From Actinocrinis puniceicyclus (lineage in GTDB: Bacteria > Actinomycetota > Actinomycetes > Streptomycetales > Catenulisporaceae), in assembly GCF_018283645.1 (NCBI RefSeq), contig NZ_JAGSXH010000012.1:1-64000 (forward strand): DNA of 64,000 bases. Reading direction: 5' to 3'. A model generated the notes under the pieces. That model did not search any database. It was not told the origin of the DNA and saw nothing but the letters and a program-made list of their open reading frames with translations. Shown here piece after piece: positions 30,605 to 37,700 of this stretch (the first letter of the stretch is position 1; each line of letters starts with the position of its first letter). Made by a program: the position numbers and the translations under genes.

Positions 30605-33442
30605 ATGCCCGAGCCTGTGACCAGCGGACCCACCGAACCGTCGCCCTCCCCCGACGCCGCCCTGCGCGCCGACATCAAGTCGCTCGGCGAACTGCTCGGC
30701 CGCACCCTGGTGCGCCAGGAGGGCCAGGAGTTGTTCGACCTCGTCGAGGAGGTGCGCGCGCTGACCCGGTCGGATGATCCGGCGGACGGGGAGCGGGCGG
30801 TGAACCGGCTCGCCGAGATCGATCTGGCCACCGCCATCCGGCTGGTGCGCGCCTTCTCCTCCTACTTCTTCCTGGCCAACGTCACCGAGCAGGTGCACCG
30901 CGGCCGGGAGTTGCACACCCAGCGCGCCACGGTCGGCTCCTGGCTCACTCAGGCGATCGACCGGATCGCCGACGCGATCGACGACCCCGAGTCCAAGGTC
31001 ACCCGGGACTGGGTCGAGCAGGTGGTCTCGTATCTGTCCATCCGGCCGGTCTTCACCGCGCACCCCACCGAGGCCGCCCGGCGCACCATTCTGACCAAGC
31101 TGCGGCAGATCGCGCTGCTGCTGGACGCGAACCCGTTCACCGAGTCCAGCGACCCGGTCGCGCGAAGGCGGGCCGAGCGCCGCCTGGAGGAACTGGTCGA
31201 GTCGCTGTGGCAGACCGACGAACTGCGGGTGGCGCGCCCCGAGCCGACCGACGAGGCGCGCAACGCGCTGTACTACCTCGACGAGCTGCACTCCGGCGCG
31301 GTGCCCGACGTCCTCGACGAGCTGGCCGCGGAGCTGGACCGGATCGACGTCACGCTGCCCGTGGACGCCCGGCCGCTCTCGTTCGGCTCGTGGATCGGCG
31401 GGGACCGCGACGGCAACCCGAACGTGACTCCGCAGCTGACCCTGGAGATCCTCGCCCTGCAGCACGAACGCGCGATCGAGGACGCGCTCAAGGTGGTCGA
31501 GCAACTGCGCGCCACGCTGTCCACGTCCAAGCGGATAGCGCAGGTCAGCCCGCGCCTTGAGTCCTCGGTCGAGGCCGACCTGGCGGCGCTGAGCGACATC
31601 GCCCCGCGCTACAAGCGGCTCAACCAGGAGGAGCCGTACCGGCTCAAGGCGATCTGCGTGCGCCAGAAGCTGATCAACACGCGGCGGCGGATCGCGCAGC
31701 AGCGCCCGCATGTTCCGGGGCAGGACTACCTCAACGGCGAGGAACTGGTCGCCGACCTGGTGCTGATGCGCGAGTCGCTGCTGGCCGACCGGGGCGAGCT
31801 GATCGCCCGCGGTTCGCTGGACCAGGTGATCCGCACGGTTTCGGCCTTCGGCCTGCATCTGGCGACGCTGGACGTGCGCGAGCACGCCGACGCGCACCAT
31901 CACGCGATCGGCCAGCTGATCGACCGGCTCGGCGGCGAGTCCTGGCGGTACGAGGACATGCCGCGCGACTACCGCGCCGGGCTGCTTGCCAAGGAGCTGC
32001 GCTCGCGCCGACCGCTGGCGCTGTTGCCCGCGGCGGTCCACCGGGCCGCCGATCCGGCCACCGCGACCCCGCTGCTGGACGAGGCCGCGGCGCGCACGTT
32101 CGGCATCTTCACCGCGATCCGTGAGGCGATCGACCGTTTCGGCCCGGCGGTGATCGAGAGCTACATCATCTCGATGTGCCGCGGCGTGGACGACGTGTAC
32201 GCGGCCGTGCTGCTGGCGCGCGAGGCCGGTCTGATCGACCTGCGCGGCGAGAAGGCGCAGATCGGCTTTGTGCCGCTGCTGGAGACCGTGGAGGAGTTGC
32301 GGCAGTCGGACACCATCCTCAACGATCTGCTCAGCGACCCGTCGTACCGCAAGCTGGTGCGGCTTCGCGGGGACGTGCAGGAGGTGATGCTCGGCTACAG
32401 CGACTCGAACAAGGAGGCCGGGATCACCACCAGCCAGTGGGAGATTCACCTGGCCCAGCGCAAGCTGCGGGATGTGGCGCACCGGCACGGCATCCGGCTG
32501 CGGCTGTTCCACGGCCGCGGCGGTACCGTCGGGCGCGGCGGCGGCCCGACCCACGACGCGATCCTGGCGCAGCCGTGGGGCACGCTGGAGGGCGAGATCA
32601 AGGTCACCGAGCAGGGCGAGGTGATCTCGGACAAGTACGCGCTGCCGTCGCTGGCCCGGGAGAACCTGGAGCTGACGGTCGCGGCGACGCTGGAGGCCTC
32701 GGTGCTGCACCTGGGGCCGCGGCAGAGCGCGGACGCGCTGGCCCGCTGGACGGCGACCATGTCAGGCATCTCCGACGCCGCGTTCGCCCGGTACCGGGCG
32801 CTGGTGGAGGACCCGGATCTGCCGAAGTACTTCCTCGCCTCGACCCCGGTGGACCAGCTCGGCGACCTGCACCTCGGCTCGCGGCCGTCGCGCCGGCCGG
32901 ACTCGGGGGCGGGTCTGGCGGGGTTGCGGGCGATCCCGTGGGTGTTCGGCTGGACCCAGTCCCGGCAGATCGTGCCGGGCTGGTTCGGGGTCGGCACGGG
33001 CCTGGCGGCCGCGTACGAGGCCGGCAACGCGGACGTGCTGGCGGAGATGTTCGAGCAGTGGCACTTCTTCAGCAACTTCCTGTCGAACGTATCGATGACC
33101 CTGGCCAAGACCGATCTGCAGATCGCGCAGCGGTACGTCAACCGGTTGGTGCCTGAGGAGCTTCGGCACGTCTTCGACACGATCAAGGAAGAGCACGAGC
33201 TGACGGTTCAGCAGGTGCTGCGGGTCACCGGCCAGAAGCAACTGCTCGGGCATGATCCGGTACTCGCGCGCACGCTGCGGATCAGGGACCGCTACCTTGA
33301 CCCGATCTCGTACCTGCAGGTGGCGCTGCTCAAGCGGCACCGGGAGGCGGTCGCGACCGGGCAGGAGGTCGAGCCGCAGTTGACGCGCGCGCTGCTGCTG
33401 ACGGTGAACGGCGTCGCCGCCGGGCTGCGCAACACCGGGTGA
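30605..33442 (+). CDS. ppc: Phosphoenolpyruvate carboxylase
   Basis: A 945-residue enzyme fixing bicarbonate onto PEP to give oxaloacetate, an anaplerotic feed to the TCA cycle. Active-site motifs are intact: [12 protein letters not shown] (catalytic His near 158), [29 protein letters not shown] and [13 protein letters not shown]. The strictly conserved C-terminal RNTG is present, so the allosteric aspartate site is complete. ATG at 30605 follows GAGGATGAGCC. It is monocistronic, closed by a hairpin at 33508-33541. Confidence 0.98.
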
Positions 33443-33485
33443 AACGGCGGCCGCCGCCGGGCTCAGATACCGGGTGAAACGACGG
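33435..33485 (+). repeat. 16-bp direct repeat spanning the ppc stop
   Basis: CCGGGTGAAACGGCGG (33435-33450) recurs as CCGGGTGAAACGACGG (33470-33485), one mismatch, 35 bases apart. The first copy contains the ppc stop codon. It may be a small local duplication. Confidence 0.7.
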
Positions 33486-33507
33486 CGGCCGGGCGGCGAA
33501 AAGCATG

Positions 33508-33541
33508 CGGCGGACGGCCATTGATTTCTGGCCGTCCGCCG
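33508..33541 (+). terminator. Strong hairpin terminator after ppc
   Basis: CGGCGGACGGCC (33508-33519) and GGCCGTCCGCCG (33530-33541) form a perfect 12-bp stem around a 10-base AT-rich loop, followed by TTCGTTGTC. It lies 66 bases past ppc and can also stop transcripts from purU on the other strand. Confidence 0.85.
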
Positions 33542-33601
33542 TTCGTTGTCTCGACGCCCCCGGTTCACCTTGCGAGGAATGCGTTCATACCCCCGCTGAG
33601 C

Positions 33602-33655
33602 TGTGGATAAACAAGATCGGGTTGTCCACGAGCTGTGGATACATTCTGTGGATAA
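33602..33655. other. Cluster of four DnaA boxes outside an origin
   Basis: Four 9-mers of the DnaA box type occur in 54 bases: TGTGGATAA at 33602-33610 and 33647-33655 (both perfect complements of TTATCCACA), TTGTCCACG at 33622-33630 and TGTGGATAC at 33634-33642 (each one mismatch from consensus). Three point one way and one the other. The region is intergenic between the ppc terminator and purU and is less GC-rich than its surroundings. No dnaA, dnaN or other origin genes are nearby, so this looks like a DnaA-binding or titration site rather than oriC. Clusters outside oriC are known in Streptomyces. Confidence 0.75.
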
Positions 33656-33778
33656 CTCGCTGCGCCATGCACACCCGTCCTCACGTAATGGCAGCCGTCA
33701 GCCAATTGACACCCAGTTGTCATCCGGCGAGTGATGAAAGCACTGCCGCCATGCGTTCGGGTCGAGAAGGCGTCGCGG

Positions 33779-34651
33779 CTACGGAAAGACGACCGTGCGG
33801 CGGCCGTTGATCAGCACACGGTGCTCCGAGTGCCACGCCACGGCGCGAGAGAGCACCCGGCACTCCACGTCGCGGCCGACGGCCACCAGCTGATCGGGCG
33901 TCAGGCCGTGGCCGACGCGGGCCACGTCCTGTTCGATGATCGGTCCCTCGTCGAGATCGGGCGTCACATAGTGCGCCGTCGCGCCGATCAGCTTGACCCC
34001 GCGGGCGTGCGCCTGGTGATAGGGCTTGGCTCCCTTGAAGGACGGTAGGAAGGAGTGGTGGATGTTGATGATCCGGCCCTCCAGCTCCTTGCACACGGCC
34101 TCCGAGAGCACCTGCATGTAGCGGGCGAGCACCACGAGCTCGACTGCGTGCTCCTCGGCCAGCCGCAACAGGCGCGCCTCCTGCTCAGGCTTGTTCTCCC
34201 TGGTCACGGGCAGGTGGACGAAGGGGATGCGGTAGGACTCGACCAGGCTCTTGAAGTCGGTGTGGTTCGAGACCACCGCCGGGATCTCGATCGGCAGCGC
34301 GCCGATGCTGTTCCGGAAAAGCAGATCGTTGAGACAGTGCCCGAACCGGGAGACCAGGATCAGCGTCGGCATCCGGACCGTGACGTCGTGGATCTGCCAG
34401 GCCATGTGGAAAGCCGCCGCGGTCGCGGTGAAACCCCCGTTCAGCGAGATCAGGTCGACGCCCTCCACCTGCGCGGCGAAGTGCACGCGCATGAAGAACA
34501 GCTTCGTGTCCGGGTCGCCGTACTGCTGGCTGTCCACGATGGTGCAGCCGGTGACCAGCAGAAAGCTGGAGACCGCGTGCACGATTCCACGCTGGTCGGG
34601 GCAGGAGAGGGTCAGCACGTACTCGCGAGGCGGTGCGGACGACGTGGTCAT
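33779..34651 (-). CDS. purU: Formyltetrahydrofolate deformylase
   Basis: A 290-residue enzyme hydrolysing 10-formyl-THF to formate and THF, balancing one-carbon pools. An ACT domain (YVLTLSCPDQRGIVHAVSSFL) fills the first 80 residues. The formyltransferase-fold catalytic domain follows, with the Asn-His-Ser signature in INIHHSFLPSFKGAKPY and the catalytic Asp in DLDEGPIIEQDV. ATG at 34651 follows GGGTGG; in-frame ATGs at 34660 and 34681 are alternatives. It is divergent from the tricorn gene with 64 bases between. Confidence 0.96.
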   Translation of the reverse strand: MTTSSAPPREYVLTLSCPDQRGIVHAVSSFLLVTGCTIVDSQQYGDPDTKLFFMRVHFAAQVEGVDLISLNGGFTATAAAFHMAWQIHDVTVRMPTLILVSRFGHCLNDLLFRNSIGALPIEIPAVVSNHTDFKSLVESYRIPFVHLPVTRENKPEQEARLLRLAEEHAVELVVLARYMQVLSEAVCKELEGRIINIHHSFLPSFKGAKPYHQAHARGVKLIGATAHYVTPDLDEGPIIEQDVARVGHGLTPDQLVAVGRDVECRVLSRAVAWHSEHRVLINGRRTVVFP

Positions 34652-34715
34652 GCCACCCATCTTCGCCCATCCCGAATGCATCGCCCAGAGCGCAGGGCGC
34701 GGATATCGTCGGGCC

Positions 34716-37700
34716 GTGGTCTCTTCTTCCTATCTTCGCTTCCCGCATCTGGCGGGAGATCTGGTCACCTTCGTCGCCGAAGACGACGTGTGGCTCGCAC
34801 CGCTCTCCGAGGCCGCGGGCGGTGCCGCCGCGGGCGGCCGCGCCTGGCGGCTTACCGCGGATCAGGTCCCGGTGCTCAACCCACGGCTGAATCCGTCGGG
34901 CACCCGCATCGCCTGGACCTCGACCAGGGACGGCTCCGCGTCGCTGGCCCGGGGCGCGGCCCGTGAGATCTACACGGTGCCGGCGGACGGCGGGCCGATC
35001 CAGCGCCTGACGTACTGGGGCGACGCGCGCGCCGCGGTGCGCGGCTGGCTCTCCGACGACGAGGTGCTGGTCGTCAGCAACGCCGGACAGCACGACACGA
35101 TGCGAACCCGCGCGTTCGCGGTGCCGGTCGACGGGCCCGCCCGCCCATTGCCCTATGGACCGGTCGGCGACCTGTCGATCGCGCCGGACGGGGCGGTGCT
35201 GCTGGGTTCACCGGCCTACGCCGAGCCCGCCCGGTGGAAACGGTACGGCGGCGGCACCGGCGGCAAGATCTGGTACTCGCCGGACGGGACCGAGTACCGC
35301 CGGATCCTCGGCGAGGTCGGCAACCACCTGGTGAACCCGATGTTCGTGGCCGGCCGGGTGGTCTTCCTTTCCGATCACGAGGGCGTCGGCGCGCTGTACT
35401 CGGCCGCGCCCGACGGCTCCGGGTTGCGCCGCCACGGCGACCACGGGCCGTACTACGCGCGCAACGCCACGACGGACGGCACACGCGTGGTCTATCAGTG
35501 CGCCGGCGACCTTTGGCTGCTCGGTGCGCTCGACGAGGAACCGGTGCGGCTCGACATCCGGCTGGCTGGGGTGCGCGGCGGGCGCGACCGGTTCCCGGTC
35601 TCGACGCGGCGGGGGCTCGGCGACTTCTCGCTGTGCAAGACCGGCCGGATCGTCGCGGCAGAGGTACGCGGGACGGTGCACTGGTTGCCGTCGAAGGACG
35701 GGCCGGCGCGCGCGCTGATCGCGACCCCGGGCGTGCGCGGCAGGCTTCCGCGAGTGATTCCGGGCACCTCGATCGTCGTGTGCGTCTCGGATTCCGGGGG
35801 CGCGGACGGGCTCGACGTCGTCGCGGCGGACGGCTCGGTCACGCGCCGGCTGGCGCACGGACGGCTGGGGCACGTGCTCGAGATCGCGGTCGCGCCGAAC
35901 GGGCAGCAGGTGGCGGTCGCGGCGCACGACGGGCGACTGCTTCTCGTGGCCCTGGGTGACCCGGCCGGCGCGGACGCGACGGACGCGACGGACGCGACGG
36001 ACGCGACGGACGCGACGGACGCGACGGACGCGGAACAGAACACGAACGCTGAGCTGAACGCGGACACTGAGCAGGACGGCGAGGGCGCGGCGGTCACCGA
36101 ACTGGTGCGCAGCAGCAACGCTGAGGTCAGTGGCCTGGCATTCTCACCGGACTCGGCCTACCTGGCCTGGGCACAGCCGTGGAATCCATGGGAGCACTCG
36201 CACATTCGTCTGGCAAGGCTCGCGGACGGCACGGTCGCGGACCTGACGCCGCCGCGGTTCGACGACACCTGCCCGGTGTTCACGCACGACGGCAAACACT
36301 TGGCGTTCCTGTCCAACCGCGCCTTCGACCCGGTATACGACGAGCATTTCTTCGACCTCAGCTTCCTCCCGGGTGTGCGGCCGTACCTGGTGCCACTGGC
36401 CGAGACCACCCCGTCGCCGTTCGCCCCCGAGCTGAACGGGCGCCCGGTCTCACCCGAGGACCGCGAGACCGCCGGGGTCGATCGCCGGGGCTCGGACACG
36501 CGCGGAACCGGCTCCGAGGACGGTTCCGTCTCCGGTTCCCCGAAAGTCGCGGTGGACCTGGAGAACATCGCGGAACGCGTGGTGCCGTTCCCTGTCGAGG
36601 CGGGCGGCTACCGCTCGCTGCGGGCGGTCAAGGGCGGCGTGGTGTGGCTCGACCCGCCGCGTACCGGACAGCTGCACGAGGCGGTGATCGGCGCCTCCGA
36701 CGAGCACCCCAAGGCCAGTCTCGTCAGGTATGACCTGGACAAACGCAAACGCACCACCGTGGTGGAGCAACTCGACTGTTTCGCGGTCTCCGGCGACGGA
36801 GCGCGACTGGCGTACTTCGACGACGGCGAACTCAAGATCAAGCCCTCGGACGCGCGGGACGATGACGACGCCGTCACCGTGGACCTTGATCGGGTGCGGG
36901 TGACCGTCGTCCCCGCGGCCGAATGGGCGCAGATGTACGACGAAGCCTGGCGGCTGATGCGCGAGAACTTCTGGCGCGCGGACATGGCCGGGGTCGACTG
37001 GCCGGCGATGGCCGAGCGCTACCGGCCGCTGCTGGACCGGATCGGCACCCAGGACGACCTGCACGATGTGCTGTGGGAGCTGCAGGGTGAACTCGGCGCC
37101 TCGCACGCTTATGTGCGGGCTCCGTCGGCGGAAAGCCGCAAGGCGCTGGCACAGGGCCTGCTCGGCGCGGACCTCGCCCCGGACGCGAGCGGGGCCTGGC
37201 GGATCGTCCGGCTGCTGCGCGGCGAGTCCTCGGTGATCGCGGCGCGCTCGCCGCTGACCTCGCCCGGAGTGGCGGCCAGGGCGGGCGACGTGATCGCGGC
37301 GGTGGACGGATCGCCGGTCGATCCGGTGCGCGGGCCGAACGCGCTGCTGGCCGGCAAGGCCGGAAAACCGGTCGAATTGACGCTGCGCCGAGACGGGGTC
37401 GAACGGCGCGTGGCCGTGGTCCCGCTCGGCAGCGAAAGCGCGCTGCGCTATCAGGACCTGGTGCAGCAGCGCCGCGCGGCCGTCCGCGAAGCGTCGGGCG
37501 GACGACTCGGCTACCTTCACGTGCCCGACATGGCGTCGTGGGGCTGGGCCGAGTTCCACCGCGATCTGCGCGGCGCGTTCGAGGCCGACGGGCTGGTGCT
37601 GGACCTGCGTGAGAACGGCGGCGGACACACCTCGCAGCTGGTGGTGGAGAAGCTGGCCCGCAAAATCATCGGCTGGCAGGTCTCCCGGTACGCCGAACCC

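Follow-up and report, generated by a model that had tools for sequence, protein, structure and literature searches.

Clusters of DnaA boxes outside oriC are known from Streptomyces coelicolor (Smulczyk-Krawczyszyn et al. 2006, J Bacteriol 188:6184), where according to review accounts (PMC4585315, PMC5742627) they repress untimely initiation, and from Bacillus subtilis, where several oriC-proximal clusters are said in one of these reviews to act in the same way (Okumura et al. 2012, cited in PMC4585315). In E. coli, titration of DnaA and an enrichment of boxes near the origin have been reported (PMC12371093), and in S. coelicolor and M. tuberculosis the high-affinity DnaA box is TTGTCCACA (PMC4285127). 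The cluster analysed here lies in the spacer between ppc and purU, in a 64-kb window (the whole stretch of 64,000 nucleotides that was analysed), and this spacer probably holds a DnaA-binding cluster acting as a DnaA sink or timing locus. It resembles the S. coelicolor clusters, as far as the reviews portray them, in coming from the same class, Actinomycetes, in having several near-consensus boxes within a short non-coding stretch outside oriC, and in its place in the segment around oriC, judged by the ortholog in the relative G003. It differs from them in that Streptomyces favours TTGTCCACA and the Actinospica-like lineage TTATCCACA, and in its genomic place, because neither ppc nor purU has a cluster beside it in Streptomyces. 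With the clusters of B. subtilis, a member of a distant phylum, the likeness is one of cluster descriptions and not of loci. The locus shares with E. coli datA, DARS1, DARS2 and the titration region the enrichment of boxes toward oriC and the character of a non-coding cluster, here presumably DnaA-binding; however, datA and DARS2 require IHF, and DARS2 also Fis (PMC12371093), whereas the window is without an IHF consensus site.

The preliminary description had placed four DnaA boxes within 54 bases at 33602-33655 of the spacer, and these positions were borne out (strands - + - -; Table 1). Two boxes had been called perfect, correctly, and the other two one-mismatch boxes. The latter holds for GTATCCACA but not for TTGTCCACG, which departs at two positions from the E. 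coli consensus TTATCCACA and at one from the actinobacterial TTGTCCACA. Both sequences may bind DnaA weakly. The surrounding patch is AT-richer, as had been stated, with 62% GC in the spacer and a 40-bp minimum of 45%, compared with 71% in the window. Apart from the two in the cluster, no perfect boxes were found in the 64 kb. Perfect boxes number 2 in the spacer and near-perfect ones 4, where shuffling gave means of 0.004 and 0.09, respectively, and the observed count was reached in 0 of 5000 dinucleotide-preserving shuffles, in agreement with the claim that such clustering is unlikely by chance. A count of boxes over the whole genome (6.77 Mb), which had been proposed as a check and was made by pattern searches, gave 29 occurrences of TTATCCACA versus 6 for the reversed control, and 21 of TTGTCCACA versus 10 for its control. 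One-mismatch boxes were barely above control (277 versus 209), so that the case rests on the perfect boxes, their clustering and their conservation. Because TTATCCACA occurs only 29 times genome-wide, pairs of perfect boxes no more than 45 bp apart are expected at about 0.006 per genome. The DnaA protein of this genome carries the Bac_DnaA_C domain with GGRDHTTV, the standard recognition motif.

Table 1. Positions of the genes, the spacer, the stem-loop and the DnaA boxes at the ppc-purU junction of the window.
Feature	Position	Strand	Remarks
ppc, phosphoenolpyruvate carboxylase	30605..33442	+	NCBIfam NF000584, 928 bits (cut-off 815); PF00311
ppc-purU spacer, convergent	33443..33778	.	336 bp, 62% GC
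Stem-loop, 13 pairs, likely terminator	33508..33541	.	Just past ppc, apart from the boxes
DnaA box 1	33602..33610	-	TTATCCACA, perfect; extended GTTTATCCACAGC; orientation unlike the nearest Actinospica box
DnaA box 2	33622..33630	+	TTGTCCACG; identical and aligned in 3/3 Actinospica-like genomes
DnaA box 3	33634..33642	-	GTATCCACA, 1 mismatch; aligns with TTATCCACA, TTATACACA or TTATCCCCA in Actinospica-like genomes
DnaA box 4	33647..33655	-	TTATCCACA, perfect in 4/4 genomes; 4-bp gap to box 3 conserved
purU, formyltetrahydrofolate deformylase	33779..34681	-	TIGR00655 PurU, 325 bits (cut-off 286)

The nearest named genome is that of Actinospica durhamensis. The spacer of its locus (L036) is identical to that of G002, and the two were treated as a single genome, so that the window's own genome (G000) was compared with three Actinospica-like genomes of one genus group, G001, G002 and G003. 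All three possess the convergent ppc-purU junction with a larger box cluster in it, comprising 2 (G001), 5 (G002) and 4 (G003) perfect boxes, and 7-8 in each at no more than one mismatch. In each genome, 0 of 5000 shuffles matched the observed cluster. Identity among the three was about 90% in the box columns and about 48% in the remaining spacer columns, where a box column is one with a box in at least one row, a definition that slightly favours these columns. The contrast was weaker between the window and these relatives, 57-67% in box columns versus 46-51% elsewhere. A core is common to all of them, TTGTCCACG (+), then TGTGGATAM (-), 4 bp, and TGTGGATAA (-); the gap from box 2 to box 3 is 3 bp in the window and 1 bp in the Actinospica-like genomes, and the outer box is inverted between them. 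Between the genera, the orientation of boxes and the partners that they would find in a hairpin vary, and the number of boxes is kept.

Outside these genomes, no orthologous cluster turned up beside either gene in the loci checked of Streptomyces and Catenulispora-like genomes. There was no cluster at ppc in 26 Streptomyces-side ppc loci (L186-L211) or in the ppc 3' regions of 8 Catenulispora-like loci (L212-L219), none at purU in about 75 purU loci of Streptomycetaceae, and none near either gene in the 19-kb neighbourhoods of both in G004 (L236, L237). In Streptomyces and the Catenulispora-like genomes ppc and purU lie apart. Thus, among the genomes seen, the ppc-purU cluster is specific to the Actinospica-like clade. 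Conservation of the cluster between the two genes, suggested as a further check, was found in every genome with the junction, and the loss of boxes that was to speak against the reading was not seen in any of them.

The site had also been described as far from dnaA. In G000, whose assembly is fragmented, dnaA is on another contig, and the distance to the origin was therefore read from G003, a genome of one contig (9.92 Mb), in which dnaA is at 5.9496 Mb and the ppc-purU cluster at 5.5423 Mb, 0.41 Mb apart. The site itself is not oriC, as the DnaA-box array beside dnaA/dnaN sits on contig C408 and no replication genes adjoin the ppc-purU site. In two of the three Actinospica-like genomes, more perfect TTATCCACA boxes stand at ppc-purU than at oriC. 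The perfect boxes of G003 are concentrated, 21 of 22 falling at 4.73-6.00 Mb, a stretch of 1.28 Mb that surrounds oriC and extends to its left (binomial 4e-18, or 2e-10 with clusters merged, for an interval picked after seeing the data). In 1.56 Mb of this genome there are 20 copies of TTATCCACA, against a mean of 0.9 and a maximum of 9 for 60 permuted motifs. The GC-skew of G003, a noisy series whose sampled minimum falls in the 5.92 Mb block, gives no more than a rough control on where the origin lies. Within G003:C1:4725848-6003555 the perfect TTATCCACA boxes near oriC are one-sided, all but one lying on or left of oriC.

Box loci of G000 were mapped to G003 by blastn and judged from the flanking alignments. 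Seven non-oriC box sites occupy matching positions in both genomes: ppc/purU, ssd/HAD hydrolase, rplI/dnaB, crgA/rhomboid, response regulator/DUF4192 gene, the ThiF-family/YgjP-like gene locus and C386, the last being a pair in G003 and one perfect box in G000. Clusters at two of the seven, crgA/rhomboid and rplI/dnaB, are also present in Streptomyces, and the constellation of box sites is thus partly shared across the order. At two matching sites (L226:5530-5699 and L229:4821-4846) the boxes are TTGTCCACA in G000 and TTATCCACA in G003; the box type shifts and the cluster stays.

In the convergent crgA/rhomboid spacer there are five DnaA boxes (G000:C408:16486-16559, equal to L224:8487-8560), 35 kb from dnaA, and the cluster recurs in G003 as well as in two Streptomyces genomes, G014 and G047. 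The S. coelicolor clusters bear the names H69, H24 and D78, and the crgA/rhomboid cluster may be H69. Boxes between rplI and dnaB lie upstream of the replicative helicase gene (G000:C387:21318-21478, equal to L227:5319-5479); this cluster is found in G003 as well and, within Streptomyces, in G014 only. The DnaB encoded there (L227:2757-5231, 824 aa) has its helicase domain split into two halves by a LAGLIDADG domain, and so probably carries an intein. Upstream of the gene for the septum-site-determining protein Ssd, two perfect boxes stand 13 bp apart (L228:5185-5206), and the pair is kept in G003.

The arrangement of the ppc-purU site can be explained by the action of a DnaA sink or timing locus, which is the reading we hold to be probable. 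The cluster would belong to a set of such clusters dispersed near oriC and along one flank of it. Since the site would be replicated fairly early, its copy number would double with each round of initiation, and the new sites would capture free DnaA, leaving oriC less likely to refire too soon. Box number has been kept while orientation and some spacings have drifted, as a sink would predict. We infer that DnaA binds the site in the cell with a net negative effect on initiation. Two points weigh against this reading: with several other clusters and oriC in the same genome the site could be redundant, and the kept three-box core (+ - -, with the fixed 4-bp gap) could reflect a structured complex and not a plain sink. 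A farther-reaching version, in our view doubtful, makes the site the main DnaA control locus of one clade, Actinospica together with the window's genus, where it would either replace the main Streptomyces sink or reset DnaA's nucleotide state independently of IHF and Fis. Among the genomes seen, the cluster was found only where the ppc-purU junction exists.

A regulatory complex that alters the nucleotide state of DnaA with the help of actinobacterial cofactors, in the manner of E. coli datA (ATP hydrolysis) or DARS (ADP release), seems unlikely here. Clustering of boxes in both orientations and the three-box core with its conserved 4-bp gap would suit such a complex, and reviews class the clusters of S. 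coelicolor and of B. subtilis functionally with datA (PMC5742627, PMC4585315). However, the window gave no match to the IHF consensus WATCAANNNNTTR, a result to be read with the reservation that IHF-like proteins of actinobacteria may differ in specificity. In addition, datA and DARS boxes hardly vary within E. coli, while at ppc-purU the outer box has changed orientation between genera and the gap between boxes 2 and 3 is either 1 or 3 bp; this contrast is suggestive at most, because variation within a species is set against variation between genera. The preliminary description had likened the cluster both to the non-oriC clusters of Streptomyces and to datA. The first likeness stands on the motif, the conservation in two genera and the origin-proximal set, while a strict datA/DARS mechanism is not supported, given the missing IHF consensus and an arrangement that differs in part between the genera.

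It is very unlikely that DnaA serves at this site as a transcription factor for ppc or purU, or for a small RNA of the spacer that lacks annotation. Such a role of DnaA is known, and further clusters of the set stand upstream of genes, for example dnaB and ssd. In contrast, ppc and purU converge, and the box cluster is consequently situated beyond both 3' ends. No sigma-70-like promoter was found in 33300-34900, and there were no Rfam matches across the 64-kb window. Control of purU by the boxes, which had been suggested earlier, was rejected as unsupported, on account of this convergence and of the distance of about 1 kb from the cluster to the start of purU, in a region where no promoter-like site was found.

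We regard it as highly improbable that the inverted boxes form a transcription terminator or other RNA hairpin between the convergent genes, with an incidental likeness to DnaA boxes. In favour of a hairpin, the folding of the spacer strand was good in the Actinospica-like genomes (z of -4.5 to -6.4), although it was weak in the window (z of -1.6). The partner boxes, however, differ by genome, the boxes being conserved and the stem not; as RNA folding pairs different boxes in different genomes, it is apparently the box that is kept and not the stem. Consistent with this, one arm in G001 has changed to TTATCCCCA without a compensating change in the other. The boxes are not accompanied by a T-run, and a separate stem-loop of the window (Table 1) has a T-run tail, on the minus strand. 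The same 9-mer is also enriched at oriC and at the other conserved sites. The hairpin or terminator was rejected for the lack of conservation of the partner boxes. Finally, an origin of the cluster by chance, or from the remains of a mobile element or of a plasmid origin, has next to no probability in view of the shuffle tests, the conservation in two genera and the lack of an adjacent replication gene, and nothing was found in its favour.

This kind of element is already known; the ppc-purU instance and its conservation are new within the literature searched, in which no paper naming both Actinospica and DnaA was found. Sequestration of DnaA on the chromosome as a timer of replication has been thinly tested outside E. 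coli. In the lineage described here, seven non-oriC sites keep their boxes across two genera while the orientation, the spacing and the type of box (TTATCCACA or TTGTCCACA) vary. Natural variation thereby separates the number of boxes from their arrangement; plain titration is compatible with such variation, and a structured complex should not be. As the ppc-purU cluster is absent where the two genes lie apart, its gain or loss can be studied between related genera.
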